Of a DNA stretch of 34,495 nt, positions 8,081 through 30,208 are shown piece after piece. The notes under the pieces are model-generated. The model saw nothing but the letters and a program-made list of their open reading frames with translations, was not told the origin of the DNA and did no database searches. A program made the translations under genes and the position numbers. The stretch's first letter is position 1. The number at the start of each line of letters is the position of its first letter. This DNA comes from Chloroflexota bacterium (lineage in GTDB: Bacteria > Chloroflexota > Dehalococcoidia > UBA2979), in NCBI GenBank assembly GCA_009840945.1, contig VXMU01000020.1, positions 1 to 34,495 of the forward strand, written 5' to 3'.

Positions 8081-9262
8081 TCAGACCGCCTCGACGCCGT
8101 CGCGGATGCGCCACTCGCCGTCCTGCAGCAGGTGGCGGATGCGCCGCGTCGCGCCGATGTCCTCGAGGGGGTCGCCGTCCAGCACCAGCAGGTCGGCGCG
8201 GCGTCCCGGCCGCACGGTGCCGAGGTCGTCCTCGACGCCGATGGCGCGCGCGCCCTGCAGGGTGGCCGACTGGATCGCCTCGTGGTTCGACATGCCGATG
8301 CCGGTCATCAGCTCGATCTCACGGTGGAGGGCTTCGGGGCCGGTGAACGGGCTGCCCATGTCCGTGCCCGCCACGATCGGCACGCCCGCGCGCCACGCCG
8401 CCGTGATGTTGGCGTGGTGCACCTCGGCGACCTCGCGTGCGCGTTGCAGCGTCTCCTCGCCGAGCGCCTCCGAGGCGCTCTCGATGACGAAGTGGATCAC
8501 CGCCAGCGTCGGCACGATGAACGTCCCGCGCTCCAGCATCTCCTCGATCAGCTCGGCAGTGACGAACGAGGCGTGCTCGACGGTGTCGACGCCGCCGCGG
8601 ACGGCGTTGCGGATGCTCGGCTCGCCGTGGGCGTGCGCGGCGACGCGCTTGCCCTCGGCGTGCGCCATCGAGGTGACGATCGAGACCTCCTCCTCGCTGT
8701 ACTGCTCGGTGCCCGGCCCGTGCCCGGTGCCGATCACGCCGCCGGAGACCATCATCTTGAGCAGGTCCGCGCCGTCGTCGAGCTGCTGCCGGGCGGCGCG
8801 GCGGACGGACTCGGGGTCGTCGGCGTGCAGGCCGACGTGCCAGCCGTGGCCGTCGGGGCCCGTCATCCACGCGCCCGCCGTGAAGATGCGCGGCCCCGGC
8901 GCCGAGCCCGAGGCAATTGAGTCGCGCAAGTCGAGGCTGAGCGGCCCCACCCCGCCGACCTCGCGTGCCGTCGTGACGCCGTTGCCGAGCAGCGCGGCGG
9001 CGCGGCGCGCGGCGCCCCCCGCCTGCTCGCCGTGCGGCAGGTCGAGCGCGTTGTCCAGCGCCTCGGGCGTCGCGTCCATGGTGAGGTGCGTGTGGGCGTC
9101 GATGAGCCCGGGCATCGCCGTCGCGCCGCCCCCGTCGATCTCCTCGCCGTCCCCGTCGAGCCCCGGACCGATCTCTGCGAAGCGTCCGTCGCGGATGCGC
9201 ACATCGACGCCGTCGCGAATGTCGCCGGCGCCGTCGATGAGGCGCAGGTTGCGGATCAGCAT
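8081..9262 (-). CDS. Amidohydrolase family protein (copy A)
   Basis: MPGLIDAHTHLTMD, LLKMMVSGG (carbamylated Lys region), VAAHAHG, DTVEHASF, IVAGTDMGSP, RRADLLVLDGDPLEDI. Confidence 0.9.
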   Translation of the reverse strand: MLIRNLRLIDGAGDIRDGVDVRIRDGRFAEIGPGLDGDGEEIDGGGATAMPGLIDAHTHLTMDATPEALDNALDLPHGEQAGGAARRAAALLGNGVTTAREVGGVGPLSLDLRDSIASGSAPGPRIFTAGAWMTGPDGHGWHVGLHADDPESVRRAARQQLDDGADLLKMMVSGGVIGTGHGPGTEQYSEEEVSIVTSMAHAEGKRVAAHAHGEPSIRNAVRGGVDTVEHASFVTAELIEEMLERGTFIVPTLAVIHFVIESASEALGEETLQRAREVAEVHHANITAAWRAGVPIVAGTDMGSPFTGPEALHREIELMTGIGMSNHEAIQSATLQGARAIGVEDDLGTVRPGRRADLLVLDGDPLEDIGATRRIRHLLQDGEWRIRDGVEAV

Positions 9263-9386
9263 CTTGAGTACCTCGCTGCAGTCCCTCGCGTCCGGCTCAT
9301 GCTATCGCGCGCATCGTCGGACAGAAGGGGCGGCGCCGTTCGCGTGCTGGGACCACACCACAAGGGCCGGTCATCCGCGCTGCGGC

Positions 9387-10559
9387 TCAGGCCACCTGGA
9401 CGCCGTCGCGGATGCGCCATTCGCCGTCCTGCAGCAGGTGGCGGGCGCTCCGCGTCGCGGCGATGTCGTCGAGCGGGTCGCCATCGAGGATTAACAGGTC
9501 GGCGCGAAGACCGGGCCGCACCGTACCAAGGTCGTCCTCGACGCCGATGGCACGCGCGCCCTGCAGCGTCGCGGCCTGGATCGCCTCATGGTTCGACATG
9601 CCGATGCCGGTCAGGTGCTCGATCTCGGCATGGATGGTATCGGGGCCCGTGAGCGGCGCCCCTCCCATGTCGGTGCCGGCGGCGATCGGCACGCCCGCGC
9701 GCCACGCGGCCGTGATGCCGGCGTGGTGCCGGTCGGCGAGCTCGGCTGTGCGTTCCAGCATCTCCCCGCGGAGGATCGCGAGCACGAGGCGGATGACGGC
9801 GAGTGTCGGCACGATGAACGTACCCCGCTCCAGCATCTCCTCGATCAGCTCGGCGGTGACGAACGAGGCGTGCTCGACAGTGTCGATGCCGCCGCGCACA
9901 GCGTTGCGGATGCTCGGCTCCCCGTGGGCGTGGGCGGCGACACGCTTGCCCTCGGCGTGCGCCACCGAGGTGACGATCGCCACCTCCTCTTCGCTGTACT
10001 GCTGGGGATCCGGCTGGCCGTCCGGGCGGAGAGCCGCGCCCGAGACCATCATCTTGAGCAGATCGGCGCCGTCGTCGAGCTGCTGGTGCGCGGCCCGGCG
10101 GAGGGAATCACGGTCATCGGCCGGCAGCCCGACCTGCCAGCCGTGGCCGTCTGGCAGCGTGATCCACGCCCCCGCGCTGAAGATCCGCGGCCCGGACGCG
10201 GATCCCGATGCAACCCGGTCGCGCAGGCCGAGGCTGAGTTCCGCGACGCCGCCGACCTCGCGCACGGTCGTGACACCGAGGCCCAGCATGGCGGCGGCGC
10301 GGCCCGCGGTCTCGCCGGCCTGTTCGGCGTGGGGGCGGGTGGCGGCGTTCTCGATCGCCCGGGTCGTCGCGTCGAGGGTGAGGTGCGTGTGCGCGTCGAT
10401 CAGCCCCGGGATCGCCGTCGCGCCACCCGCGTCGATCTCCTCGCCGTCGCCGTCGAGTCCCGGCCCGACCTCGGCGAAGCGCCCGTCGCGGATGCGCACG
10501 TCGACGCCGTCGCAGATGTCGCCGGCGCCGTCGATGAGGCGCAGGTTGCGGATCAGCAT
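9387..10559 (-). CDS. Amidohydrolase family protein (copy B, tandem paralogue of copy A)
   Basis: IPGLIDAHTHLTLD, LLKMMVSGA, VAAHAHG, DTVEHASF, IAAGTDMGGAP, LRADLLILDGDPLDDI; start and C-terminus near-identical to the 8081..9262 product. Confidence 0.9.
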   Translation of the reverse strand: MLIRNLRLIDGAGDICDGVDVRIRDGRFAEVGPGLDGDGEEIDAGGATAIPGLIDAHTHLTLDATTRAIENAATRPHAEQAGETAGRAAAMLGLGVTTVREVGGVAELSLGLRDRVASGSASGPRIFSAGAWITLPDGHGWQVGLPADDRDSLRRAAHQQLDDGADLLKMMVSGAALRPDGQPDPQQYSEEEVAIVTSVAHAEGKRVAAHAHGEPSIRNAVRGGIDTVEHASFVTAELIEEMLERGTFIVPTLAVIRLVLAILRGEMLERTAELADRHHAGITAAWRAGVPIAAGTDMGGAPLTGPDTIHAEIEHLTGIGMSNHEAIQAATLQGARAIGVEDDLGTVRPGLRADLLILDGDPLDDIAATRSARHLLQDGEWRIRDGVQVA

Positions 10560-12921: not shown

Positions 12922-14781
12922 ATGCCTGCTTTGAGAACGTGGCTCCTCGTGCTCGTAGCCGCGTCCGCGACCCTCCTGCTGGCGGCCTGCGCCGACGACT
13001 CCGATGACGCCGAGGAGGCGACCGCCGTCCCCGCCACGGACACTACCCCCGCGGCGGCGCCCGTCGTCGAGGCATCGGTCGTCGAGCAGCTGCGCGCGAA
13101 CGCCGACGCGTTCAGCTATGAGATCGGGACGTACGGCGGCACGATCACGACCGCCACCATCGGCAAGCCGCTGACGTTCAACCTCGCCCTCGCCAACGAC
13201 GCCTACTCGTCTGGACTACTGAGCTACCTGTTCGAGGGGCTCACCGAGACGTCGTGGCTCACCGACGAGGTCGAGCCGCTGCTCGCCGAGTCGTGGGAGC
13301 ACTCGGACGACGGCCTCACCTGGACCTTCCACCTCCGCGACGACGTGCGCTGGCACGACGGCGAGCCGTTCACGGCGCAGGACGTGGAGTTCACGTTCAA
13401 CCGCATCATCTACAACGAAGACATCCCCACCAGCACCCGCGCCGCGTTCCAGTTCCGCTACCTCGATGCCGCAGGCGAGTGGCAGGTCGAGCCGATGACC
13501 GTGACGACGATCGATGACCAGACCGTCCAGTTTGTGCTGCCGACGCCGTTCGCGCCGTTCCTGCGCTCGATGGGCACCGCGATCTACCCACGGCACATCC
13601 TCGAGCCACACGTCGAGGAGGGAACCTTCAACGATGTGTGGGGCGTCGACTCCGACCCGTCCGAGGTGATCGGCACCGGCCCGTACACCATCGAGAGCTA
13701 CACGCCGGAGGATCGCGTGGTGCTGGTCCGCAACCCGGACTACTGGCTCCACGACGCCGAGGGCAACGCGCTGCCGTACATCGAGCGCATCGTGAACCTG
13801 CTCGTCCCGACCATCGAGGACGACTTCGAGAAGTTCCGGGCCGGCGAGGTCGACGCGTACGGGATGCGCGGCCAGGACTTCGCGGTCCTGGAGCCCGAGC
13901 AGGAGTCGGGCAACTTCACGGTCCACCGCCGCGGCCCGGCCTTCGGGACGGTGTTCCTCGGCTTCAACCTCAACACGGGCTCGAACCCCGAGACCGGCGA
14001 CCCCTACGTCGCGCCCGAGCAGCTCGCGTGGTTCAGCAACGTCGAGTTCCGCCGCGCCGTAGCGCACAGCATCGACAAGGCGCGGATCATCGAGGAGGTC
14101 CAGCACGGGCTCGGCTACCCGCAGGCGTCCTCGATCAGCCCGGCGGCAGGCGACTTCCACAACCCCGACGTGCGCCGCTACGACTACGACATCGAAGGCG
14201 CCAACGCGATCCTCGACGGGCTCGGCTGGATGGACGGCGACGGCGACGGCTTCCGCGAGGACGCCGACGGCAACCCGATCACCTTCAAGCTCGTCACCAA
14301 CGTCGACAACGACGTGCGCGCGCGCGTCGCGGCGATCATCGACGAAGGGCTCGACCTGATCGGCATCGATGCGCAGTTCGAGCCGATCGAGTTCGGGGAC
14401 CTCGTGGGGCAGCTGACCACGACGTTCGACTGGGAGGCGATGATCGTCGGGCTCACCGGCGGCACGGAGCCCCACTTCGGGATGGCCGTGTGGCACAGCA
14501 GCGAGTCGCTGCACCTGTGGCACCCCAACCAGGAGCAGCCGGCCACCGAGTGGGAGGCGGAGATCGACGCGCTCTACGTTCAGGGCTACCAGGAGCTCAA
14601 CCACGAGCGACGCGTCGAGCACTATCATCGCGCGCAGGAGATCGTGGCCGAGCAGCTCCCGCTCATCTACACGACGCTCTCGGAGCGTCTGAGCGCGGTA
14701 CGCAACGTCTTCGGCAACACGACGCCGACCCTGTACGGGCTGTGGGACGTGCGGTACGTGTACCGTACGGACGTGAACTAG
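12922..14781 (+). CDS. ABC transporter substrate-binding protein, family 5 (lipoprotein)
   Basis: MPALRTWLLVLVAASATLLLAAC lipobox; LAESWEHSDDGLTWTFHLRDDVRWHDGEPFTAQDVEFTFNRI...GTGPYTIESYTPEDRVVLVRNPDYW: SBP_bac_5 signatures. The 700 aa ORF start (12679) is over-extended. Confidence 0.92.
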   Translation: MPALRTWLLVLVAASATLLLAACADDSDDAEEATAVPATDTTPAAAPVVEASVVEQLRANADAFSYEIGTYGGTITTATIGKPLTFNLALANDAYSSGLLSYLFEGLTETSWLTDEVEPLLAESWEHSDDGLTWTFHLRDDVRWHDGEPFTAQDVEFTFNRIIYNEDIPTSTRAAFQFRYLDAAGEWQVEPMTVTTIDDQTVQFVLPTPFAPFLRSMGTAIYPRHILEPHVEEGTFNDVWGVDSDPSEVIGTGPYTIESYTPEDRVVLVRNPDYWLHDAEGNALPYIERIVNLLVPTIEDDFEKFRAGEVDAYGMRGQDFAVLEPEQESGNFTVHRRGPAFGTVFLGFNLNTGSNPETGDPYVAPEQLAWFSNVEFRRAVAHSIDKARIIEEVQHGLGYPQASSISPAAGDFHNPDVRRYDYDIEGANAILDGLGWMDGDGDGFREDADGNPITFKLVTNVDNDVRARVAAIIDEGLDLIGIDAQFEPIEFGDLVGQLTTTFDWEAMIVGLTGGTEPHFGMAVWHSSESLHLWHPNQEQPATEWEAEIDALYVQGYQELNHERRVEHYHRAQEIVAEQLPLIYTTLSERLSAVRNVFGNTTPTLYGLWDVRYVYRTDVN

Positions 14782-16698: not shown

Positions 16699-19215
16699 TC
16701 ACGGCACGGAGGGGTCGTACGTGTCGCCGATGTGGCCGAGGTCCTCGAAGCGGCGGTAGTCGGCGTCGCTGAAGCCGAGCAGCTCCTTGTAGACGTACTC
16801 GTTGTCCTGGCCCAGCAGCGGCGCATGGCGCGGCGCGAACTCCGGCATCGCGCTGCCCCGCCATGAGCGGCCGACGTGGCGGTACGTGTCCGTCTCCGGG
16901 TGCGGGATCTCGACGAAGAAGTCGCGCGCCTGGTGGTGCGGGTCCTCGTAGATGTCGCCCTCGGTCAGCACCGGCGCCGCCGGGACGCCGACGCGCTGCA
17001 GGCGGTGCGCGATCCAGTGGCGGTCGCGCGTCGACGTCCACTCCGTGACGATCGCGTCCAGCTCCGCGCGGTTCGCGAGGCGGCTCGCCATGTCGGCGAA
17101 GCGCGGGTCGCCGGCCAGGTCCTCGCGGCGCATCACCTCGCACAGGCGCCGCCACTCCTCCTCGCTGCGCACGGCGATGGTGACCCAGCGGTCCAGGCCC
17201 TGGCAGCGGTACGCGTTATGCGGGGCCATCCAGACGTCGTTGTTGCCCATCTGCTCCCAGATGCGGCCGTTCATCGAGTAGTCCAGCACGAACTCGCCGA
17301 TCAGCGGGACGAAGTTCTCCGTCGTCGCCTGCTCGATGAACAGGCCGCGGCCGGTGCGGTCGCGGTAGCGCAGGCCCATCGTGAACGAGAACGCCGCGCC
17401 GGCCCCGCCCGCCGCGTCCGAGGGCACCCCGAGCGGGATGTACTCGAGGCTGAGGCCGGGGTACGAGCGGATCGCGGGGTGGCCGGAGAACGCCTCCATG
17501 TGCATCCCCATGCTGCGCAGGCTGCGGTACGGCCCCTCCAGGCCGTATCCGGGCATGCGTAGCAGGATGAATCGAGGGTTGATCGCGGAGACCCGCTCCC
17601 AGTTGATGTCCAGGCGTTCCAGGTTCTGCGGCAGGTTGTTCTCGATCAGCCCGTCCGAGACCTCGACGAGACGGTCGAAGACCTCCTGCCCGTCAGGCCG
17701 GGAGAGATCCACGGTCATCGAGCGCTTGTTGCGGCTGTGGTGGTTGAAGGCCGAGGAGCGGTTCCACGGCCGCTCGCCCGCCTCGGCGTTCGGGTAGCCG
17801 AGGCCGGCGGTGCTCAGCATCTGCGCCGCCACGATCTCCGGCGACGGGCGCGCCATCAGCCCGCGGGTGGCGTTGGCGAAGTGCTGCAGCGACTCCACGC
17901 GGATCACCTCCGCGCCCCACTCCGCGAGGTGCATCGTCGAGTAGGGGCCGGCGAGGACCACCGTGAAGTCGAGGATGCGCACGCCCTCGAGGGGGAGGCG
18001 GGCCGTCGCGCCCGCGGGCGGGACGGTCGGGGCCTCGCTGGGCGCCGGGTCGAGCTCGGCGAGCACCTCGTCGGTGTGCTCGCCGAGCAGGGGCGCGCGG
18101 CGGCGCGGCGGCATCGGCTCGTCGGGGCGGTACAGCGTCGCCGAGTAGCCCGGGTAGTGGAGCGGGCCGGTCTCGGGGTGGTCGATCTCCTGGAAGAAGC
18201 CGCGGTGGCGGAAGTTCTGGTCCGACAGCATGTCGGCCACGGTGTTGATCGGCCCGCCGAGCACGCCCGCCTCGATGCACGCCTCCGTGATCTCGGCCTT
18301 GGTGTGGGAGACCATCCACGGGATCAGGTACTGGTTGAACTGGTCGATGCGCTCCGGCTGCGCGCGCGACTCGACGGTGGCCCACTCGGGCTGCTCCAGC
18401 AGCTCCGGCTGGCCGATCATGCGGATGACGGCCTCGAGGCGGACCGGGCCGCCGCTCAGCATGAAAAAGCCGTCGCCGCACGGGAACGTGCCGCTCGCCA
18501 CGGCCGAGGCGAGGGGCGGCCTGGTGCCGTAGAAGCCGGTGTACTCGTACATCATCAGCCGCGCCAGCCGCAGGTCGATGGAGTGCGTCGCGGTCTCCAT
18601 GAGCGAGAGGTCGATGTGCTGCCCCTCGCCGGTCGCCTCGGCGGCGCGAAGCGAGAGCGACGTGGCGAGCGCGCCGACGATCCCCCCGTGGAACAGCGTC
18701 ATGTGCCCGGCGTTCTTGAGGGGCTCGTGGTCGATGTCGCCCGAGGCGATCATCGGGCCGCCCAGCGCGTAGAGCGTGAGGTCCGTGAGCTCGTAGTCGC
18801 GGTACGGCCCGTCCTGCCCGAAGTTCGTCATCGAGGTCAGCACGATGCGCGGGTTCACCGCGCGCAGCGCCTCGTAACCGAGGCCGAGGCGCTCCATCGT
18901 CCCCGGCGGGAAGCTCTCCACCACCGCGTCGGCGGTAGCGACCAGGCTAAGCAGCCGCTCGCGGTCCTCGGCACGTTCGAGGTCGAGCACGACGCCGCGC
19001 TTGTTCGTGTTGAGGAACAGGAACACGGCCGAGCGGTCCGGGCCCGGCGTGTCCTCCAGGAACGGGGGCTGCGTGCGCGCCGTGTCGCCCTCGGGCGGCT
19101 CGATCTTGATCACATTCGCGCCGTAGTCGCCGAGCAGCCGCGTGGCGAAGGGGCCGGCCTCCCCCTGCGTGAGATCGATCACGGTCACGTCGTCGAGCGG
19201 CATCACGTCGGCCAT
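16699..19215 (-). CDS. Double-domain CaiB/BaiF family III CoA-transferase
   Basis: Two full CoA-transferase III repeats: VIDLTQGEAGPFATRLLGDYGANVIKIEPPEGD...GEGQHIDLSLMETATH... and RILDFTVVLAGPYSTMHLAEWGAEVIRVES...GRGLFIEQATTENFVPLIGEFVLDYSMNGR...HHQARDFFVEIPHPETDTYRHVG. Start MADVMPLDDVTVIDL at 19215; the 960 aa ORF start is over-extended. Confidence 0.92.
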   Translation of the reverse strand: MADVMPLDDVTVIDLTQGEAGPFATRLLGDYGANVIKIEPPEGDTARTQPPFLEDTPGPDRSAVFLFLNTNKRGVVLDLERAEDRERLLSLVATADAVVESFPPGTMERLGLGYEALRAVNPRIVLTSMTNFGQDGPYRDYELTDLTLYALGGPMIASGDIDHEPLKNAGHMTLFHGGIVGALATSLSLRAAEATGEGQHIDLSLMETATHSIDLRLARLMMYEYTGFYGTRPPLASAVASGTFPCGDGFFMLSGGPVRLEAVIRMIGQPELLEQPEWATVESRAQPERIDQFNQYLIPWMVSHTKAEITEACIEAGVLGGPINTVADMLSDQNFRHRGFFQEIDHPETGPLHYPGYSATLYRPDEPMPPRRRAPLLGEHTDEVLAELDPAPSEAPTVPPAGATARLPLEGVRILDFTVVLAGPYSTMHLAEWGAEVIRVESLQHFANATRGLMARPSPEIVAAQMLSTAGLGYPNAEAGERPWNRSSAFNHHSRNKRSMTVDLSRPDGQEVFDRLVEVSDGLIENNLPQNLERLDINWERVSAINPRFILLRMPGYGLEGPYRSLRSMGMHMEAFSGHPAIRSYPGLSLEYIPLGVPSDAAGGAGAAFSFTMGLRYRDRTGRGLFIEQATTENFVPLIGEFVLDYSMNGRIWEQMGNNDVWMAPHNAYRCQGLDRWVTIAVRSEEEWRRLCEVMRREDLAGDPRFADMASRLANRAELDAIVTEWTSTRDRHWIAHRLQRVGVPAAPVLTEGDIYEDPHHQARDFFVEIPHPETDTYRHVGRSWRGSAMPEFAPRHAPLLGQDNEYVYKELLGFSDADYRRFEDLGHIGDTYDPSVP

Positions 19216-19360
19216 GGCGGCACCCCCGCGCGGCAGTGTAGCGACGCGAGCGAGGGCGTGGCGACGCGCGGCACGCTCCCGGCGCCCGATGCGTTGCCGC
19301 GGCACCGCCGCGAGCGCTACGGTCGCCGCGCAATCCGACGGGCGCGCGAGGAGGTCCAAG

Positions 19361-20080
19361 ATGGCGGGACGGTTCGAGGGCAAGGTGGCGATCGTGACCG
19401 GCGGGGCGTCGGGGATCGGCCGGGCGACCTCGCTCCGGCTCGCCTCCGAGGGCGCCAGCGTCCTGGTCGCCGACCGCGACGAGCCGATGGGGACCGAGAC
19501 GGTCGAGCTCATCGAGGCGGCCGGCGGCACGGCGAGCTTCGAGCGCGTCGACGTGCGCAGCGAGGAGTCGGTCGCCGGCATGGTCGCGACGGCCGTCGAG
19601 CGCTACGGCGGGCTGGACGTGGCGCACAACAACGCGGGTGTCGTCGACCGGGTGATGCGCATCACGGAGATGGCCGCGGACCGCTGGGACCGCATGATCG
19701 CGACGAACCTGAGCAGCGTCTTCTACTGCCTCAAGCACGAGGTCCCCGCGATGCTTGAGCGGGGCGGCGGCGCAATCGTGAACACCTCGTCGGGCGCGGG
19801 ACTGCACGGCGGGGCCGGGCTCGCGCACTACAGCGCGGCGAAGCACGGAGTCATCGGCCTGACGCGGTCGGCCTCGGACGAGTTCGCGCGCGAGGGTGTC
19901 CGCGTGAACGCCGTCTGTCCGGGGCTGGTCGACACGCCGCTGGTGCAGGGCAGCGTCTTCGACGTGGACTTCAAAGCGGATCCCTCCCAGATCGCCGAGG
20001 TGGTCGCGTGGCTGCTCTCGGACGACTCCTCGTGGGTCTCGGGTCAGCCGATCGAGGTCAACGGGGGTGGTCGCGGCTGA
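19361..20080 (+). CDS. SDR family oxidoreductase
   Basis: MAGRFEGKVAIVTGGASGIGRATSLRLASEGASVLVADRD...LDVAHNNAGVVDR...YSAAKHGVIGLTRSASDEFAREGVRVNAVCPGLVDTPL...DDSSWVSGQPIEVNGGG. Start from internal Met of the 312 aa ORF. Confidence 0.93.
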   Translation: MAGRFEGKVAIVTGGASGIGRATSLRLASEGASVLVADRDEPMGTETVELIEAAGGTASFERVDVRSEESVAGMVATAVERYGGLDVAHNNAGVVDRVMRITEMAADRWDRMIATNLSSVFYCLKHEVPAMLERGGGAIVNTSSGAGLHGGAGLAHYSAAKHGVIGLTRSASDEFAREGVRVNAVCPGLVDTPLVQGSVFDVDFKADPSQIAEVVAWLLSDDSSWVSGQPIEVNGGGRG

Positions 20081-20163: not shown

Positions 20164-20187
20164 GCGGGCGGCCCAAGGGCCGCCCGC
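20164..20187. terminator. Array hairpin 1
   Basis: GCGGGCGGCCC-AA-GGGCCGCCCGC, perfect 11-bp stem; ends 141 bp before the first array SBP start. Confidence 0.65.
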
Positions 20188-20233
20188 CGCACGTTCGGCG
20201 TCGGTCTTTGCGCGGGGCTGCATGCATCCGCGG

Positions 20234-20273
20234 CTACAACGAATGCGTATCACCTATAACGAATATGTATGAT
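20234..20273 (+). promoter_or_regulatory. Tandem 20-bp direct repeat in the upstream region of the first array SBP
   Basis: CTACAACGAATGCGTATCAC / CTATAACGAATATGTATGAT, 15 of 20 identical; contains -10-like TATAAC and TATGAT. Confidence 0.55.
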
Positions 20274-20327
20274 GCGGGCAGTGACGTGTCAGGCACGGCA
20301 CGAGTGCCAACGGAGTGGAGCAGAGTC

Positions 20328-22218
20328 ATGACGGAACCCGAGAGCATCCGACGCTTCTGGTCGCTGGAACTGAACCGGCGCGCCCTGCTGCGAGGCGGTG
20401 CTCTCGGCGGGGTGGGCCTCGCCGCCGCCGCGCTCATCGGCTGCGGCGGTGACGACGATGACGACGACACCACGAGCACGGCGCCGGCCTCAGGCGCCAC
20501 CTCCGGGTCGTCGACCACCGCGACGACCTCGACATCGACGGATACGTCGAACGGCGACGACGACTCGGCGGACAGCACCAAGCCGAGCGGTGACAGCGAG
20601 GACGCCTCCGAGCAGGTCGAGGCGCTCGGGGAGTGGATCAAGGACCCGGACCTCCCGTACCCGTTCAACTACCCGGAGCCGAACAAGGTGCCCAAGCCGG
20701 GCGGCGTCATGAAGGTCGCCACCAGTTGGGACTACCAGACCATCGACCCGGTCACCTCGGCCGCGGGCGGCACGGTCACCGTCCCCAACGTCACCTACAA
20801 CCGCCTGCTCGGCATCGTGCGCGGGCCCGCGGCGGACCCGTACAAGCTCGAGCTGGAGCCGGAGCTTGCCCAGTCATGGGAGCGCTCACCGGACGGGCTG
20901 ACGTTCACGTTCAACATCACCCCGGGGATCACGTGGCAGAACGTCCCGCCGCTGAGTGGGCGGGCGTTCACGGCGGACGACGCGAAGTTCGCGATCGAGC
21001 GCTACGCCAACGAGGGCGTGCACCAGGCGTACTACAACAACGCCGCCACGTATGAGGCCGCGGACGACCTGACGTTCAAGATCGGCATGGCGAACCCGAC
21101 GGCGGACTTCCTCAACCCGCTCGGCAGCAACAAGCAGACGATCTTCCCGCGCGAGCTCGTGGACGACGGGACGATCGAGACCAGGGCCATCGGCACCGGC
21201 GGGTTCATCCTGACCGACGCCGCCCCGGCGCAGCACGTGATCTTCGAGAAGAACCCGGACTACTGGGAGCGCGAGGTCCTGATGGACGGCTTCGAGTTCC
21301 GGATCATCCTGGACGGCGCGGCCCGCACCGCGGCATTCCGCGTCGGCCAGATCGACTACGCGTACTCGCTGGCCCCGAACCTGGCGACGCTCGAGAAGAT
21401 CCTCGAGACCAACCCGGACGTGCAGGTCAACCTGCTCGTGGTCACGTACAACGGGACCACGTTCGGGATGAACCTCACGCTCCCGAAGTACGCCGACGAG
21501 CGCGTGCGGCGCGCCATCTCGCTGGCGTTCGACCGCGAGCTGATGGTGGACCTGGTCTACGACGGGCTGGCCAAGATCTTCCACGTCATCCCGTGGACCT
21601 ACCTGTACGACGAGGAGCCGACGCTGGAGTCGGGCGGGCTGGGCAACTGGATCCGCCACGACCCGGCAGAGGCCCGGAAGCTGCTCGCGGCCGCGGGCGC
21701 CGAAGGCCTCACGATGGTGAACATGTACTACCCGTACTCCGGCCTGCAGGACCAGACGGCCGAGATCGCACAGGCCAACCTCAAGGACGCCGGCATCACC
21801 ATGACCGGCGGCGCCGTCGACTACACCGAGTTCAACTCGGCGTGGGTGCCGGCCAAGCTGCCGGACGTCTCCACGGTGGCGTGGAGCACCAGCGGCTTCG
21901 ACGCCGACAACTGGTTCCACGGCCAGATCCACTCGGAGTCGCCGGGCAACCGCTGGCGCATCAACGACCCGCAGCTGGACGCGTGGGCGGAGGAGCAGCA
22001 GCTGGAGCTCGACCCCGACGCGCGGCGCGACATCTGGCAGAAGATCTACGACCGCGACCTGGACATGATGTACCGGCCCGGCCTTCCCCAGCGGGAACTA
22101 CCCGGAGGTGCTCCAGCCGTGGGTGCGCGGTATCCGCTGGGGCGCCAGCTCGCCGAACGACAACAGCTCCTACTACGACTGGGGCGACGTCATCCCGGCG
22201 GCCTGGCTGGACAAGTAG
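20328..22218 (+). pseudogene. ABC transporter substrate-binding protein, family 5, Tat lipoprotein; 1-nt frameshift near 3' end
   Basis: MTEPESIRRFWSLELNRRALLRGGALGGVGLAAAALIGCGGDDDDDD...KPGGVMKVATSWDYQTIDPVTSAAGGTVTVPNVTYNRLLG...; reading frame changes at ~22077-22079, after which another frame reads SGNYPEVLQPWVRGIRWGASSPNDNSSYYDWGDVIPAAWLDK* matching the paralogue C-termini. May be a sequencing error rather than a true pseudogene. Confidence 0.85.
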
Positions 22219-22255
22219 GGAGCGAGACGCGGCACGCACCCCTCGACGCGGGTGT

Positions 22256-22279
22256 GCGGGTGGCCTTCGGGCCGCCCGC
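22256..22279. terminator. Array hairpin 2
   Basis: GCGGGTGGCC-TTCG-GGCCGCCCGC, 10-bp stem with one G-U type pair. Confidence 0.65.
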
Positions 22280-22415
22280 TCCGCGTCCGGATCGGGGCGA
22301 GGCGCGAGATCCGCGACCGGCGGGCATGGCGTATTCCTGTTGCCGGGCCATGTATAGTGCCCCGCATAACGGCACGGTATATCGCGCCGGGAGCACGTAG
22401 AGAGAAGAGGAACCC

Positions 22416-24308
22416 ATGACGGACACCGAGCGTCTTGAGCGCTGGTTCTCGCCTGCGGTCAGCAGGAGAACCCTATTGCGAGGCAGCCTGCTCGGCGGAG
22501 TGGGCCTCGCCGCGGCCGCACTGATCGGCTGCGGCGGCGACGACGATGATGACGATGACGACACCGCCGCCACCACCTCCGGCACCACGTCGGGCAGCGG
22601 GACCACCAGCGGCGGCTCCGGCAGTTCGGACGCAAGCGCGTCGGCGGACGACAGCGACGACGCCGCGGACGACGCGGCGACATCCGACGACACCGACGAG
22701 GAGCCGGTGGGCGAGGGGATGCTGGTCCAGGATCCGGACCTGCCGTACCCGTACCAGTTCCCGGAGCCGGCAGGGCTGACGCCGAAGGCCGGCGGCACCC
22801 TGCGCGTCGCGGCCACGTGGGACGTCGGGTCGATGGACCCGACCGTGTCCGCCGCCGGCGGCACCATCACGGTGCCGAACATGGTCTACGACAAGCTGCT
22901 CGGCATGGTCGGTGGGCCGTCCAAGAACCCGTTCAGCATCGAGATCAAGCCGGAGATCGCCTCGTCCTGGGAGCGCACGCCGGACGGGACCGTCTTCTCG
23001 TTCGAGCTGCGCGACGACGTGAAGTGGCAGAACCTCCCGCCGCTCAACGGGCGGGCGCTGAACGCCGAAGACGTCAGGTACGCCTTCGACCTCTACTCCC
23101 AGACGGGGGTGCACCAGTCCTACTGGACCAACATCGGATCGATCGATGCGGTCGACGACCAGCACCTCACGATCACGATGTCGAAGGTCACGGCGGACTT
23201 CATCCTGCCGCTGGCCAGCCGGTACCAGCTGATCTTCCCGAAGGAGCTCGTCGACGAGGGCACGATCGACCAGAAGGTGATCGGGACCGGCGCGATGATC
23301 CTCGATGAGGCGTCTCAGGGCAGCCACGCGACGTTCACCAAGAACCCGGACTACTGGGCGGGCGAGGTCTACCTGGACGGTGTCGAGTTCCGGCTCCGCC
23401 AGGACTACGCAACGCGCCTCGCCGGGTTCCGCGTCGGCCAGTTCGACTACTGCTACGGGCTGGTGCCGGACATCCGGGCGATGGAGAAGCTGCTCGAGAC
23501 CAACCCGGAAGTGCAGGTGAACTTCAACACCAACGTGCGTGGTAACCCGTTCGGCCTGAACCTCTCGAACCCGAAGTTCGCGGACGAGCGCGTGCGGCAG
23601 GCGATCAGCCTCGCCATCGACACGGAGTTCATGGAGGACGTCCAGTACGACGGCCTCGCGAAGTCCAACGCGCTCCAGGTGTGGACCTTCGTCTTCGACG
23701 ACGAGCCCAGCGCCGCGGCCGGCGACTACGGCCGGTGGCATGGGCGCCACGACATCGACGAGGCGAAGAAGCTGATCGCGGCCGCGGGTGCGGAAGGGCT
23801 CGAGTTCGAGAACTTCTACCACAACTACGGATCGCCCACCGGCGACCAGCGCTCCGACATCGTCAAGGAGCAGCTGGCGGCCGTCGGGCTGACGTTGAAC
23901 CCGCGGCACGTCGACTACACCGAGTTCAACTCGACGTGGGTGCCGGGCAAGCTGGAAGAGGCAAGCACGTCGGCGTGGGCCACAGTGGGCTTCGACGCGG
24001 ACAACTACTTCTACAGCGTGCTGCACTCGCAGTCCTCGGGGAACCGCTGGCAGCTCAACGACCCGCAGGTCGACGCCCTGGCGGAGGCCCAGCAGGTCGA
24101 GCTGGACCCGGACGCGCGGCGGGACATCCTCCGCGAGATCTGGGACTACGTCATGGACAAGGCGTACCACCCGCCGCTCCCGACGCAGTTCAGCTTCGAG
24201 GTGTACCAGCCGTGGGTGCGCGGCCTGCGCTTCGGCGGGGTCATGTACTCCAACGGCTCGTACTACGACTGGGGCCACCAGATGGGGACGGCCTGGCTCG
24301 ACAAGTAG
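22416..24308 (+). CDS. ABC transporter substrate-binding protein, family 5, Tat lipoprotein
   Basis: SRRTLLRGSLLGGVGLAAAALIGCGGDDDDDDDD; Asp/Ser/Thr-rich linker; LRVAATWDVGSMDPTVSAAGGTITVPNMVYDKLLG...SWERTPDGTVFSFELRDDVKWQNLPPLNGRALNAEDVRYAFD...; YYDWGHQMGTAWLDK C-terminus. Confidence 0.93.
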   Translation: MTDTERLERWFSPAVSRRTLLRGSLLGGVGLAAAALIGCGGDDDDDDDDTAATTSGTTSGSGTTSGGSGSSDASASADDSDDAADDAATSDDTDEEPVGEGMLVQDPDLPYPYQFPEPAGLTPKAGGTLRVAATWDVGSMDPTVSAAGGTITVPNMVYDKLLGMVGGPSKNPFSIEIKPEIASSWERTPDGTVFSFELRDDVKWQNLPPLNGRALNAEDVRYAFDLYSQTGVHQSYWTNIGSIDAVDDQHLTITMSKVTADFILPLASRYQLIFPKELVDEGTIDQKVIGTGAMILDEASQGSHATFTKNPDYWAGEVYLDGVEFRLRQDYATRLAGFRVGQFDYCYGLVPDIRAMEKLLETNPEVQVNFNTNVRGNPFGLNLSNPKFADERVRQAISLAIDTEFMEDVQYDGLAKSNALQVWTFVFDDEPSAAAGDYGRWHGRHDIDEAKKLIAAAGAEGLEFENFYHNYGSPTGDQRSDIVKEQLAAVGLTLNPRHVDYTEFNSTWVPGKLEEASTSAWATVGFDADNYFYSVLHSQSSGNRWQLNDPQVDALAEAQQVELDPDARRDILREIWDYVMDKAYHPPLPTQFSFEVYQPWVRGLRFGGVMYSNGSYYDWGHQMGTAWLDK

Positions 24309-24329
24309 CGAGCACTCCTCGGTGCACAC

Positions 24330-24374
24330 CCCCTCGATGCGAGGGGACGGGCGGGCGGCCTTCGGGCCGCCCGC
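24330..24374. terminator. Array hairpin 3 (double hairpin)
   Basis: CCCCTCG-ATG-CGAGGGG (24330-24346) and GCGGGCGGCC-TTCG-GGCCGCCCGC (24351-24374), just after the previous SBP stop. Confidence 0.7.
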
Positions 24375-24497
24375 TCCGCGTCCGGCGAGGCGTCATCACG
24401 CCTGCTCCCGCCCGGATCCCGCAATAACGATTGCGCATAACGGTATGATCTCCGGGACCGGCGGCGTAGCTGCGCCGTCAGAACCAGGAGCAGAGTC

Positions 24498-26381
24498 ATG
24501 ACCGAACCCGAGAGCACCCAGCACTGGTGGGCGCCGGAGCTGACCCGGCGGAGCTTATTGCGAGGTGGCCTGCTCGGAGGGGTGGGCCTCGCCGCGGCCG
24601 CGCTGATCGGCTGCGGTGGGGATGACGACGACGATGACGACGACGGCGCCAGCACCGGCGCCGCCACGGGCGGCACGAGCGGCAGCTCGACGACCGCCAC
24701 GACGTCGACGACAGGCGACGACTCCGCCGACGGCGACGCCGCCGACACCGGGGGCGACGACGCCGAAGAGGCTGTCGGCGAGGGATACGGGTTCGTCCGG
24801 GACGAGACCCTGCCCTACCCGTACCAGTTCCCGGAGCCCGCGGGGGCGATCCCCAAGGCGGGCGGGATCATGCGCATCGCCGCCACGTGGAACGTCGCCA
24901 CCATGGACCCCACGGCCTCGGCCGCGGGCGGCACCATCACCGCGCCGAACATGGTCTACAACCGCCTGCTCGGCATGGTCGGCGGGGTCAACAAGAACCC
25001 GTTCACCATCGAGCTCGAGCCCGAGCTTGCCGCGTCGTGGGAGCGCACGCCGGACGGCTCGCTGTTCTCGTTCGGGATCCGCGACGACATCAAGTGGCAG
25101 AACGTGGCCCCGCTCAACGGCCGCGCGTTCACGTCCGGGGACGCCAAGTACGCGTTCGACCGCTACGCGGCCGAGGGCGTGCACAAGTCGTACTGGGCTA
25201 ACGTGAGCGAGATCGCGACGCCCGACGACACCACGATGACCATCGAGATGTCGAAGGTGACGGCGGACTTCATCCTGCCGCTGGCGAGCCGCTACCAGAC
25301 GATCTTCCCGAAGGAGCTCGTCGACGACGGCACGATCGCGGACAAGGTCGTGGGCACCGGCCCGATGATCCTCGACGAGGCGGAGGCCGGCAGCCACGCC
25401 ACTTTCAACAAGAACCCGGACTACTTCGAACGGGAGGTGCTGCTCGACGGCGTCGAGTTCCGTCTGCGCCAGGACTACACGGCGCGGCTCGCCGGCTTCC
25501 GAGTCGGCCAGTTCGACTATGTCTACGGCCTGGCGCCGAGCATCGACCAGCTGGGGAAGGTCCTCGAGACCAACCCGGACATTCAGGTCAACCTCACGCC
25601 GGTGGTGAACGGCACCTCGCCGTTCGGGATGAACCTCTCGAACCCGAAGTTCGCCGACGAGCGTGTCCGCCAGGCGCTCACGCTCGGCATCGACACAGCG
25701 CTGATCGCCGAGCTGCTCTACGACAACATCTCCAAGACGTTGCCGCTGCAGCCGTGGACGTTCGTGCGCGACGACGAGCCTACGGCCGAGAACGGCGGCC
25801 TCGGCCGTTTCGCGGGGCGCTACGACCCCGATGAGGCGATCAAGCTGCTCAAGGCCGCGGGCGCGGAAGACCTGGAGTTCGAGAACTTCTACCACAACTA
25901 CTCGAACCCCGGCTCGGACCAGCGGGCGGAGATCATCGCCGAAAACCTCGAGCAGATCGGGGTGAAGATGACCCAGCGCCACGTCGACTACACGGAGTTC
26001 AACTCCACGTGGGTGCCGGGCAAGCTGGAGGAAGGCTGCACGAGCTGCTGGCTGACGGTCGGGTTCGACGCGGACAACTTCTTCTACAACTCGGTGCACT
26101 CGGAGTCGCTCGGCAACCGCTGGCGGCTTAACGACCCGCAGGTCGACGAGTGGGCGGAGGCGCAGCAGGTCGAGCTGGACCCGGAGGCGCGGAAGGAGAT
26201 CCACACGACGATGTGGGACTACTTCCTGGAGAAGATGTACTGGCCGCCGCAGCCGGCCTCGATCGGCATCGAGGTCTACCAGCCGTGGGTGCGGGGCATC
26301 CGCTTCGGCGGGGTGTTCCTCACGAACATCTCGTACTACGACTGGGGCGACCAGATCGCGGGAGCCTGGCTCGACAAGTAA
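24498..26381 (+). CDS. ABC transporter substrate-binding protein, family 5, Tat lipoprotein
   Basis: TRRSLLRGGLLGGVGLAAAALIGCGGDDDDDDDD; MRIAATWNVATMDPTASAAGGTITAPNMVYNRLLG...; YYDWGDQIAGAWLDK C-terminus. Confidence 0.93.
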   Translation: MTEPESTQHWWAPELTRRSLLRGGLLGGVGLAAAALIGCGGDDDDDDDDGASTGAATGGTSGSSTTATTSTTGDDSADGDAADTGGDDAEEAVGEGYGFVRDETLPYPYQFPEPAGAIPKAGGIMRIAATWNVATMDPTASAAGGTITAPNMVYNRLLGMVGGVNKNPFTIELEPELAASWERTPDGSLFSFGIRDDIKWQNVAPLNGRAFTSGDAKYAFDRYAAEGVHKSYWANVSEIATPDDTTMTIEMSKVTADFILPLASRYQTIFPKELVDDGTIADKVVGTGPMILDEAEAGSHATFNKNPDYFEREVLLDGVEFRLRQDYTARLAGFRVGQFDYVYGLAPSIDQLGKVLETNPDIQVNLTPVVNGTSPFGMNLSNPKFADERVRQALTLGIDTALIAELLYDNISKTLPLQPWTFVRDDEPTAENGGLGRFAGRYDPDEAIKLLKAAGAEDLEFENFYHNYSNPGSDQRAEIIAENLEQIGVKMTQRHVDYTEFNSTWVPGKLEEGCTSCWLTVGFDADNFFYNSVHSESLGNRWRLNDPQVDEWAEAQQVELDPEARKEIHTTMWDYFLEKMYWPPQPASIGIEVYQPWVRGIRFGGVFLTNISYYDWGDQIAGAWLDK

Positions 26382-26402
26382 CGAGCACTCCTCGGCGCAC
26401 AT

Positions 26403-26446
26403 CCCTCGATTCGAGGGCACGGGCGGGCGGCCTGCGGGCCGCCCGC
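26403..26446. terminator. Array hairpin 4 (double hairpin)
   Basis: CCCTCGA-T-TCGAGGG (26403-26417) and GCGGGCGGCC-TGCG-GGCCGCCCGC (26423-26446). Confidence 0.7.
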
Positions 26447-26586
26447 TCCGCGTCCGGTGTCCCGCATCCCCGGCGCATCACGTCCACTGGGAACCGACCG
26501 ACGTGCGGGAACGTACTGCTATACAGGGATGGATGGTCGGCGCATCGACACGCCCGCGCGCACTATCACCACCAGGGGGCGCAGCC

Positions 26587-28452
26587 ATGACCGAGCCTGA
26601 GGCCAGCGCGCACCGACGGCCGCTCGAGTTGAGCCGGCGCAGCCTGCTGCGAGGCGGCTTGCTCAGCGGGGTCGGCCTCGCGGCCGCGGCGCTCCTCGGC
26701 TGCACACAGGACGAGGACCCCGCGCCGCAGCCAGTCGCCGGCGCTGACGCGGACCCGACGCCCAGTCCGTCGCCAACCCCGCTGGTTGCGCCAACCGCGA
26801 CTCCTCGCCCGCGTCTTGCCCGAACCGAGCCGGACGATCTGGGGATGTTGGTCTGGGATCGGGACCTGCCGTACCCGTACCAGTTCCCGGAACCAGGCTG
26901 GCCGCTTGAACGAGGCCAGACCCTGAAGATCGCCGCCACGTTCTCCGTCGACACCATGGATCCGGTGATGGCGGCCGCCGGCGGCGCCATCACCGTGCCG
27001 AACATGGTCTACAACCGGCTCCTCGGCATGGTTGGGGGTGTGAACAAGGACCCGTTCGCCATCGAGCTGGAACCTGAGTTGGCGGAGGCCTGGGAACGCA
27101 CCCCGGATGGGGTGACGTTCACCTTCTATCTGCGCGGCGACGTGCACTGGCAAAACGTCGCGCCGCTGAACGGCCGCAGGTTCGTGGCCGATGACGCCCG
27201 CTTCGCGTTCGAGCGCTATCGCTACGAGAGCGTCCACAGGTCCTACTGGGCGGACATCGGCTCGCTCGACACGCCCGACGACACCACGCTCAACATCCAC
27301 ATGTCCAGGGTGACGGCGGACTTCATCCTGCCGCTCGCCAGCCGTTACCAGCCGATCTTCCCGAAGGAACTCGTCGACAGCGGCGAGATCGAGTCGAGGG
27401 CGGTCGGCACCGGGCCCATGATCCTGACCGAACCCCTGGAGGAGGACCGTGTCGCGTTCACGAGGAACCCGGACTATTTCGAGCGCGAGGTGCTGCTGGA
27501 CGGGGTCGAGTTCCGCTTCATGCACGACCCTGCCGCCAGGCTCGCCGCCTTCCGCGTGGGGCAGGTCGACTACGCGTACGGAATTGCCGACAACGTCGAG
27601 CAGCTGAACGCTGTGCTGGAGACCAATCCGGATACCCAGGTCAACTTGCAGGTGGTCGACTCCGGCAGGATGCCGCTCAGCCTGAACCTCTCGAACCCGA
27701 AGTTTGCGGATGAGCGTGTGCGGCGGGCGATGACGCTCGCGTTGGACACGCAGCTCATAGCGGACACCGTCTATCCCGACCTGGCAAGACACTTGCCGCT
27801 GCACCCGTGGGTGTTCGTGGAAGACGAAGAACCGGGGCCGGAGTCGGGCCTGCTCGGGCGGTGGTTCGGACGCTACGACCCGCCTGAGGCGAGGCGGCTC
27901 CTTGCGGCGTCCGGCGCTGAGGGCCTGAGGTTTGGGTGCGTGTACCACAACCACGGCACGCGGGTGTTGGACCGTCTCACTGACATGATCCTCGGCGCGC
28001 TCCCCGGGGTGGGCATCACCATGGACTCGAGGCATGTCGGCGAGTCCGAGTTCGACGCGATCTGGACGTCGGGTAACCTCGCCGAGGCCAGCACATCGGC
28101 GGTCGCGCCGGGAGGGTTTCAGGCCGACCACTTCTTCCATGACCTGGTCCACTCGGGGTCTCCGAAGAACCTGTGGAACCTCAACGACCCGCGAGTCGAC
28201 GCCTGGGCCGAAGCGCAGCAGGTCGAGCTCAATTCCGACGCACGGAGGGAGATCCATCGCACGATGTGGGAGTACTTCCTCGACAAGGTGTTCTGGCCAC
28301 CGCTGCCCGCCCCGGTAGGCTTCGAGGTCTACCACCTGTGGCTGCGCGGGATCCGCTTCGGCGGAATCCTCGGCACCAACAGCTCCGACTACGACTGGGG
28401 TGACCAGATCGCGGAGGCCTGGATCCTCGACCCCGAGGGTTGGCGCCGATAA
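26587..28452 (+). CDS. ABC transporter substrate-binding protein, family 5, Tat lipoprotein
   Basis: MTEPEASAHRRPLELSRRSLLRGGLLSGVGLAAAALLGCTQDEDP; LKIAATFSVDTMDPVMAAAGGAITVPNMVYNRLLG...; DYDWGDQIAEAWILDPEGWRR C-terminus. Confidence 0.92.
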   Translation: MTEPEASAHRRPLELSRRSLLRGGLLSGVGLAAAALLGCTQDEDPAPQPVAGADADPTPSPSPTPLVAPTATPRPRLARTEPDDLGMLVWDRDLPYPYQFPEPGWPLERGQTLKIAATFSVDTMDPVMAAAGGAITVPNMVYNRLLGMVGGVNKDPFAIELEPELAEAWERTPDGVTFTFYLRGDVHWQNVAPLNGRRFVADDARFAFERYRYESVHRSYWADIGSLDTPDDTTLNIHMSRVTADFILPLASRYQPIFPKELVDSGEIESRAVGTGPMILTEPLEEDRVAFTRNPDYFEREVLLDGVEFRFMHDPAARLAAFRVGQVDYAYGIADNVEQLNAVLETNPDTQVNLQVVDSGRMPLSLNLSNPKFADERVRRAMTLALDTQLIADTVYPDLARHLPLHPWVFVEDEEPGPESGLLGRWFGRYDPPEARRLLAASGAEGLRFGCVYHNHGTRVLDRLTDMILGALPGVGITMDSRHVGESEFDAIWTSGNLAEASTSAVAPGGFQADHFFHDLVHSGSPKNLWNLNDPRVDAWAEAQQVELNSDARREIHRTMWEYFLDKVFWPPLPAPVGFEVYHLWLRGIRFGGILGTNSSDYDWGDQIAEAWILDPEGWRR

Positions 28453-28520
28453 CCGCCCGCCACCGCCCCACGCGAGGAGCGCCGCAGGCTCCATAGCCGC
28501 ACGACCCGTAGACTCGGTCC

Positions 28521-29435
28521 ATGTCGCCGGGGAACGACCTCGCCATCCAGACGCAGAGCCTGCGCAAGGCGTACGGCGCTGTCGAGGCGGTGCGCGGGGT
28601 TGACCTCGCCATCGGGCACGGCGAGGTGTACGCGCTGCTCGGGCCGAACGGCGCGGGGAAGACGACGACCGTCGAGATTCTCGAGGGCCACCGCGAGCGA
28701 GACGGCGGCGAGGTCAGCGTGCTCGGCCACGACCCCGCGCGGCGCGAGCCCGCGCTGCTGCGGCGCATCGGCATCGTGCTGCAGACGCCGGGCGTCGAGC
28801 CCTACCTGAACGTCGCCGAGGCGATCGAGCAGTACCGCGGCTTCTACCCGCACCCGCGCCCGCTCGACGAAATCATCGAGATCGTCGGGCTGACCGAGCA
28901 GCGCGGGCAGCGCATCCGCAAGCTCTCCGGCGGCCAGCAGCGCCGCCTGGACGTGGCGATCGCCCTCGCAGGCGACCCCGAGCTGCTCTTCCTGGACGAG
29001 CCGACCACGGGCTTCGACCCGGCGGCGCGGCGGCAGGCGTGGGACATGGTGCGCAACCTGCGCTCCTCGGGCGCGACGGTGCTCCTCACCACGCACTACA
29101 TGGACGAGGCCGAGCACCTCGCCGACCGCGTCGGCGTCATCGTCGATGGGGCGATGGTGGCGGAAGGCACGCCCGAGGACCTGATGGCGAGCAGCCCGGC
29201 CGCCGTGGTCTCGTTCCGGTTGCCGCCTGACCACTCGCACCTCCTCGACGGCGTCGAGGGCGCGCGCGCCTCCGGTGACGGGCGGTACGAGGTGCGGACC
29301 GAGTCGCCGACCGCCCTCCTGCATGACCTCACCGGCCGCGCGCTCGAAGCCGGGTCCGAGCTCGCCGAGCTCCGCGTCGAGCGCGCCACGCTCGAGGACG
29401 TCTACCTGGACCTCACCTCGGAGGCCTCGTCGTGA
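28521..29435 (+). CDS. ABC transporter ATP-binding protein (ABC-2 / DrrA type)
   Basis: Walker A GPNGAGKTTTVEILEG, signature LSGGQQRRLDVAIAL, Walker B LLFLDEPTTGFD, H-loop TTHYMDEAE. Confidence 0.95.
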   Translation: MSPGNDLAIQTQSLRKAYGAVEAVRGVDLAIGHGEVYALLGPNGAGKTTTVEILEGHRERDGGEVSVLGHDPARREPALLRRIGIVLQTPGVEPYLNVAEAIEQYRGFYPHPRPLDEIIEIVGLTEQRGQRIRKLSGGQQRRLDVAIALAGDPELLFLDEPTTGFDPAARRQAWDMVRNLRSSGATVLLTTHYMDEAEHLADRVGVIVDGAMVAEGTPEDLMASSPAAVVSFRLPPDHSHLLDGVEGARASGDGRYEVRTESPTALLHDLTGRALEAGSELAELRVERATLEDVYLDLTSEASS

Positions 29436-30208
29436 CGGGGGCGCGGCTGCTCGCGCGGCAGATGCGCTACGAGTTCCTCGCGTTCCGGCGGAACCCGGCA
29501 GCGGCGTTCTTCACGTTCTTTTTCCCGCTCATCTTCCTCGTCGTCTTCAACCTCATCTTCGGCAACGACACCATCAGCATCCCGGGCGGCGATACGAACA
29601 CCTCGACGTTCTACATCCCGGCGATCGCGGCGTTCTCGGTCATCAACGCCTGCTACACAGGCTTGGCGATGTCGATCTCGTTCGCGCGCGACCAGGGCCA
29701 GCTCAAGCGCGTGGCCGGCACGCCGCTGCCGAAGGGCGCGTACCTGGGCGCGAAGGTGCTGTTCATGACGATCATCGGCATCGTCCTCGTCGCGGTGGTC
29801 ACGGCGTTTGGCTGGGTGTTCTACAGCGTCGACGTGCCGACGGGCACGCTGCCGGCGTTCCTGCTCACACTCGCGGTGGGCGCGGCGGCGTTCGCGATGC
29901 TCGGGCTGGCGATGACGGCGTTCATCCCCAACGCCGAGGCGGCCCCGGCGGTGGTGAACGCGGTCATCCTGCCGCTGCTGTTCATCTCCGACGTCTTCAT
30001 CCCGCTGCGGGACAACGCGCCGGTCTGGCTCGGACTCGTCGGCGACGTGTTCCCGGTGAAGCACCTCTCGCTCGCCCTGCAGGCCGCGTTCAACCCGTTC
30101 GAGGATGGCTCCGGGCTCCGGCTCGGGCACCTCGCGGTGATGGCGGCGTGGGGCGCCGGGGGCGCGGTGGTGGCGCTGCTGCGGTTCCGATGGGAGCCGA
30201 AGCGCTAG
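29432..30208 (+). CDS. ABC-2 type transporter permease
   Basis: GTG start overlapping the ATPase stop (GTGA); LARQMRYEFLAFRRNPAAAFFTFFFPLIFLVVFNLIFG, further hydrophobic helices, ISDVFIPLRDNAPVWLGLVGDVFPVKHLSLAL. Confidence 0.92.
   Translation: MTGARLLARQMRYEFLAFRRNPAAAFFTFFFPLIFLVVFNLIFGNDTISIPGGDTNTSTFYIPAIAAFSVINACYTGLAMSISFARDQGQLKRVAGTPLPKGAYLGAKVLFMTIIGIVLVAVVTAFGWVFYSVDVPTGTLPAFLLTLAVGAAAFAMLGLAMTAFIPNAEAAPAVVNAVILPLLFISDVFIPLRDNAPVWLGLVGDVFPVKHLSLALQAAFNPFEDGSGLRLGHLAVMAAWGAGGAVVALLRFRWEPKR

Follow-up and report, generated by a model that had tools for sequence, protein, structure and literature searches.

A tandem array of four Tat-lipoprotein solute-binding proteins in a Chloroflexota genome: candidate receptors for distantly encoded dipeptide-type permeases

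Which importer is served by four tandem genes for solute-binding proteins (SBPs) of the SBP_bac_5 family that share their contig with no importer permease is the question raised by a 34,495-bp stretch of DNA from an uncultured Chloroflexota bacterium of the class Dehalococcoidia (GenBank assembly GCA_009840945.1, contig VXMU01000020.1), here called the window. It comprises bases 1–34495 of a contig of 41,850 bp (C136) in a 2.53-Mb metagenome-assembled genome (MAG) consisting of 136 contigs at a completeness of 92.5% (G000). The four genes, W1 to W4, belong to a subfamily of lipoproteins with twin-arginine translocation (Tat) leaders, and from the gene content of this and related genomes it appears fairly probable that many such receptors of diverged specificity feed a few DppBC permeases and one ATPase pair, with carboxylates among the ligands of many of them. 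The array genes are as follows, where G002 denotes the genome of a congeneric sister species and dN/dS the ratio of nonsynonymous to synonymous substitution rates:

20328..22400, + strand: W1, Tat-lipoprotein SBP_bac_5 with a C-terminal frameshift (PF00496, E 4e-68; leader; comparison with the G002 orthologue)
22416..24308, + strand: W2, Tat-lipoprotein SBP_bac_5 (PF00496; orthologue in G002:C74, 91% identical, dN/dS 0.27)
24498..26381, + strand: W3, Tat-lipoprotein SBP_bac_5 (PF00496; G002 orthologue 93% identical, dN/dS 0.16; structural model)
26587..28452, + strand: W4, divergent Tat-lipoprotein SBP_bac_5 without poly-Asp linker (PF00496; no orthologue in slot 4 of G002)

The gene starts and their spacings of 2088, 2082 and 2089 bp reproduce exactly those of the initial annotation, and all four products match PF00496 with 173–233 bits (cut-off 32.4) over most of the domain. 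The constant period of about 2.08 kb emphasized there is correct in its values but does not reflect a special mechanism, as it simply corresponds to gene length plus a short spacer; other arrays show periods of about 2.06–2.19 kb. A twin-arginine motif followed by a lipobox cysteine (RRxLLRG...LIGC or LLGC) is indeed present in all of W1–W4, and from this leader the proteins are predicted to be Tat-exported and anchored in the membrane. By direct reading, the leader of W1–W3 is RRxLLRGxLLGGVGLAAAALIGC and is followed by a run of aspartates, whereas W4 lacks this poly-Asp linker after the lipid-bearing cysteine. The frameshift near the C-terminus of W1 is borne out by the conserved YYDWGDVIPAAWLDK tail lying in another frame (stop TAG at 22218) and by the intact, 97%-identical G002 orthologue, compared to which a run of C at about 22076–22079 is one base longer in W1. 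A sequence error and a real mutation are equally likely here, the former being conceivable because the contig has an end rich in homopolymers and another part of the MAG contains an N-gap. Homopolymer-rich G/C runs are located at window positions 1–70 (the contig start) and around the N-gap at L003 6397–6530, and are likely artefacts of assembly or sequencing. A fifth SBP_bac_5 gene of the window, W0 (12922–14781), encodes a non-Tat protein of another subfamily and is likewise without a linked permease; at its position in G002, two tandem copies are found.

In the whole of G000, 20 SBP_bac_5 genes are present, 15 of them belonging to the Tat-lipoprotein subfamily and distributed over eight loci, with four genes in the window, three on contig C94, two each on C79, C73 and C23 (the last two non-adjacent) and one each on C58 and C132. 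The lack of a permease and an ATPase, initially noted for the array, extends to the complete contig of 41.85 kb: neither an importer permease nor an oligo_HPY ATPase was found on it, including the part beyond the window, which also disposes of a permease encoded just outside the latter. The genes at 28521–30208 adjoining the array belong to an ATP-binding cassette (ABC) system of the ABC-2 exporter type, which is SBP-independent, and were accordingly rejected as partners.

Searching the MAG for dppBCDF, as had been recommended, located DppBC on C92 and C23 and a DppD/DppF pair on C131, all off the array contig. As judged from Pfam domains, DppB genes occur on C92 (two, together with one DppC), on C23 (with DppC, adjoining one of the 15 subfamily SBPs), on C10, where the gene forms an operon with a different SBP of its own, and on C16. 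The DppBC of C92 and C23 are of one type, and the matching type was found at these two loci only. They are presumably the cognate permeases of the subfamily SBPs, mainly because the same type adjoins SBPs of this clade in other genomes, directly so at three loci in G001, at two in G003 and in G013 and G044; in G020, it is encoded beside a more distant SBP. Three oligo_HPY ATPase genes are present in G000, the dppF-dppD pair next to lepA on C131 and a single one at C73. The dppF-dppD-lepA locus is kept in every relative inspected at 71–99% identity, and its gene order recurs in six genomes of the family. Apart from its bearing on transport, this locus (L008 303–4338, G000:C131) may indicate that a peptide-importer ATPase pair and LepA are connected, either functionally or by history.

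Hence, 15 subfamily SBPs of G000 face two matching DppBC loci and one DppDF pair, i.e., the paralogues outnumber the permeases. A corresponding imbalance is found in G005, where 15 such SBPs compare with two DppB genes and a single ATPase pair, and in G003, with 18 SBP_bac_5 and 11 DppB genes versus one ATPase pair. Among 44 family members, oligo_HPY counts vary between 0 and 8, and SBP counts reach up to 34 in the subset counted. Gaps in the MAGs make counts from single genomes uncertain, while the excess of SBPs over DppB and ATPases is a consistent pattern across the family.

No ligand can be assigned from the NCBIfam equivalogs, as every score is far under the cut-off (DppA, 57–67 bits versus 1005; OppA, at most 60 versus 947). 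The model of W3, with a predicted local distance difference test score (pLDDT) of 93.1, displays the three-domain fold of DppA, OppA and NikA, and its best PDB matches are DppA, AapF, GbpA and NikA at template modelling (TM) scores of 0.7–0.8. For the binding pocket, an alignment with E. coli DppA and OppA at about 20% identity was used to locate the column of DppA D408 and OppA D419, the aspartate binding the alpha-amino group of peptides. At this column, aspartate is absent in 47 of 47 homologues. When per-site divergence was mapped on the alignment, the D408/D419 column turned out to be among the 3% most variable, with nearby columns being conserved, and 27 columns were fixed between G000 and G002 orthologues yet showed at least five different residues among paralogues. 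The missing aspartate, the variability of its column and these 27 positions together suggest a diversified, non-peptide specificity of the subfamily.

The genomic context of the SBP loci points in a similar direction. About 50 class III CoA-transferase genes, many of them encoding fused double-domain proteins, are present in the 2.5 Mb of G000, and at four of the eight SBP loci such a gene lies within 1.5 kb (P 0.005). The same distance applies to six of 14 loci in G005 (P 6e-5) and to three of seven in G002 (P 0.03), the latter value not being independent of G000. Other neighbors of SBP loci encode acyl-CoA dehydrogenases, short-chain dehydrogenases (SDRs) and a luciferase-like monooxygenase. 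In SAR202 Chloroflexi, CaiB/BaiF CoA-transferases are expanded and have been read as a sign of carboxylate catabolism (PMC5395668), and cultured Tepidiforma, members of the same class as G000, use fatty acids and aromatics (PMC10284905). In line with both reports, the lack of the peptide-binding aspartate and the CoA-transferase adjacency above expectation lead us to infer with moderate confidence that many subfamily SBPs bind carboxylate rather than peptide ligands, which is the less certain part of the interpretation.

As to the origin of the array, pairwise identities (47–65% among the window copies, 72–76% within C94, 83% for C79 and 88% for C73) and the tree establish the genes as true paralogues and not as unrelated acquisitions. 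W1 groups with the triple array of C94 (Shimodaira–Hasegawa-like approximate likelihood ratio test, SH-aLRT, 99), and W2–W4 group with the pairs of C73 and C79 (SH-aLRT 100). Because of this split, the array is to be regarded as old, with members not stemming from one recent local duplication. In G002, the block is identical in order, comprising CoA-transferase, SDR, four SBPs, ABC-2 exporter and MgtE. Relative to their G002 counterparts, W1, W2 and W3 show identities of 97, 91 and 93% and, at dN/dS values of 0.07, 0.27 and 0.16, similar to those of neighboring genes, are under purifying selection. In contrast, W4 and the G002 gene in slot 4 share only 61% identity at a dS of 0.84, about threefold the background (0.2–0.4 elsewhere), and the spacers of the two genomes do not align past the hairpin behind W3. 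Thus, spacer and W4 (window 26445–28520) form a non-orthologous block between orthologous flanks. The dS value and the unalignable upstream DNA argue against W4 being just a fast-evolving orthologue and indicate that the slot contains a different gene; the likeliest cause is either that an additional paralogue was lost differentially or that the gene in the slot was replaced. With W1 grouping elsewhere and slot 4 being non-orthologous, the simple local duplication of a cassette assumed initially is not supported for the four genes.

Taken together, W1–W4 would be paralogous receptors for dipeptide-type ABC importers within a 15-member family. They may capture different small organic solutes and deliver them to shared DppBC permeases (C92 and/or C23) powered by the DppD/DppF pair of the dppF-dppD-lepA locus, and the class III CoA-transferases and acyl-CoA dehydrogenases beside several SBP loci might then activate and oxidize the carboxylates. 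Hence, in view of 15 SBPs, two DppBC loci and one DppDF pair, the early proposal, in which receptors have diversified and supply a single distant permease or a few of them, is the best-supported one, albeit without the single-duplication origin attached to it. Several points weigh against it. At 92.5% completeness, permeases could be missing from the MAG; docking of the SBPs on the C92 or C23 permease is deduced indirectly; the pocket argument is built on an alignment of about 20% identity and is not proof; a third oligo_HPY ATPase is encoded beside the SBP pair of C73; half of the SBP loci are without a CoA-transferase within 5 kb; and these enzymes are so common that some adjacency is due to chance.

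Sharing of a permease would also be compatible with ordinary di- or oligopeptide receptors that have split their ranges like DppA1–A5 of Pseudomonas aeruginosa, the CoA-transferase neighbors being incidental. The SBPs agree with DppA/OppA in fold and family, about 50 CoA-transferases are available in the genome for fortuitous proximity, and sharing by peptide receptors is the proven precedent; however, with the amino-end-binding aspartate missing in all 47 homologues and CoA-transferase adjacency exceeding expectation in two genera, peptide receptors are considered unlikely. Even less can be said for a role in sensing or scavenging in which the orphan SBPs would deliver to no permease; this had been offered as the second option and has been proposed for orphan SBPs of tripartite tricarboxylate transporters (TTT) (PMC5994714). 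The missing linked permease would fit, and the C132 SBP, one of the 15, adjoins a gene for a hybrid histidine kinase/response regulator (both within L012 2236–7242), a weak hint from a single neighbor only; relatives, on the other hand, occur in SBP-DppB-DppC clusters and matching permeases exist in the genome, making this role improbable.

It is very improbable that near-redundant receptors were amplified for number and not for specificity. Such gene dosage might be seen in the C79 and C73 pairs, still 83–88% identical, but not in the window copies, which are only 47–65% identical and whose differences are fixed between species. A misassembly or collapsed repeat, finally, might be suspected from the 136 contigs, the homopolymer-rich contig ends, an N-gap and the single-base indel in W1. 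As the same array with the same order and flanks recurs in the separate genome G002, and the copies are too divergent to collapse, an assembly artefact is hardly conceivable.

Both SBP_bac_5 paralogues sharing one Dpp-type importer and orphan tandem expansions of SBPs, the latter among TTT receptors, are known. The oligopeptide receptors of the pneumococcal Ami/Ali system comprise fewer copies than found here, and their own ATPases, AmiE and AmiF, are encoded with the permease. Like the subfamily SBPs, however, the lipoproteins AmiA, AliA, AliB, AliC and AliD belong to SBP_bac_5 and are partly encoded apart from AmiCDEF, which has been proposed as their common permease system (PMC11192437). 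The P. aeruginosa paralogues DppA1–A5, likewise of SBP_bac_5, include four with closely spaced genes, differ in ligand range and work with one DppBCDF (PMC4206461, PMC12728205); they thus resemble the present case in having several paralogues per dipeptide-type importer, although sharing is deduced here from the genes. While the four P. aeruginosa genes are near dppBCDF and the ligands are peptides, the Chloroflexota array has no linked permease, the ATPase pair is encoded separately, the 15 SBPs occupy eight loci and the peptide-anchoring aspartate is absent. TctC/Bug receptors of TTT show large orphan expansions, in which as many as nine genes stand in tandem and membrane components are very few, and many of these receptors bind carboxylates (PMC5994714, PMC5812351). 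This likeness is restricted to genome organization, as TTT receptors are an unrelated SBP family working with ATP-independent transporters; none of the window SBPs matches the TctC family, all being PF00496 proteins. SAR202 Chloroflexi, of the same phylum, similarly possess many paralogues of class III CoA-transferases, SDRs and flavin monooxygenases, whereas the portion of that report considered here mentions neither an SBP_bac_5 expansion nor the pairing of SBPs with CoA-transferases (PMC5395668), families that adjoin in the genomes described here. A literature search gave no match for an SBP expansion in Chloroflexota, and the combination of many Tat-lipoprotein SBPs without the peptide aspartate, a lone family-wide ATPase pair and CoA-transferase adjacency was not found described in a limited search of open-access literature.

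Besides the coding regions, the array is structured by a recurring GC hairpin, whose core is GGGCGGCC-N4-GGCCGCCC, located before W1 and after W1, W2 and W3:

20164..20187, + strand: 3' hairpin GCGGGCGGCC-CAAG-GGCCGCCCGC, between the SDR gene and W1
22254..22281, + strand: 3' hairpin after W1, with one G-U pair in the core
24351..24374, + strand: 3' hairpin after W2
26423..26446, + strand: 3' hairpin after W3

A near-identical hairpin with a variable loop is found 3' of most tandem SBP genes. Exact matches to the pattern number 12 in the 2.53 Mb of G000, nine of them at SBP arrays (three in the window, three on C94, two on C73 and one on C79; copies outside the window at L002 6035, 8116 and 10234, L004 2425 and 4480, and L003 8689), and 10 in G002, seven of these at SBP arrays. 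Such low copy number and location do not fit a mobile element of the repetitive extragenic palindromic (REP) type. Loops vary, and the base pair flanking the core is either C-G or G-C depending on the array, as expected for a conserved stem. Because other SBP genes and one dppC carry different strong 3' hairpins, the most plausible role of the element is that of an inherited terminator or a stabilizer of the 3' end, although it escaped a simple terminator scan for want of a T-run. About 60 bases upstream of W1–W3, TATGAT/TATAGT boxes are present and kept in G002. Consequently, W1, W2 and W3 each look like a separate transcription unit made up of promoter-like box, gene and 3' hairpin, while W4 has neither the hairpin nor the box. 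A direct repeat, AACGAATnnGTAT, before W1 (window 20233–20275) and a related element before W3, both kept in G002, might represent an operator.

Upstream of W1, two genes conserved beside the array in G002 are found:

16699..19602, - strand: open frame of a fused double class III CoA-transferase (PF02515 in two stretches, E 1e-187)
19361..20080, + strand: SDR between CoA-transferase and W1, start estimated (PF00106)

Farther upstream, at window 8084–10559, two tandem amidohydrolases are encoded which are 78% identical, the first being closest to an Xaa-Pro dipeptidase model.

Proteins of the SBP_bac_5 family are often annotated as peptide receptors by default. It is a tentative idea, possible though rather doubtful, that this Chloroflexota family has rebuilt a peptide importer into a general system for carboxylate capture, in which a single chromosomal DppDF pair encoded beside lepA would energize all or most DppBC permeases, the former aspartate site of the receptors would now determine specificity, and each receptor gene would be placed next to that of the CoA-transferase activating its ligand. 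The paralogue set, with residues fixed between species yet mutually different, would provide a natural series for changes in pocket specificity with one permease interface kept. If carboxylate uptake by shared permeases is true, the type of CoA-transferase encoded beside an SBP gene would give testable guesses at the ligands of many uncharacterized SBP_bac_5 proteins, and the expansion of CoA-transferases in Chloroflexota would be linked to an uptake route for acids.

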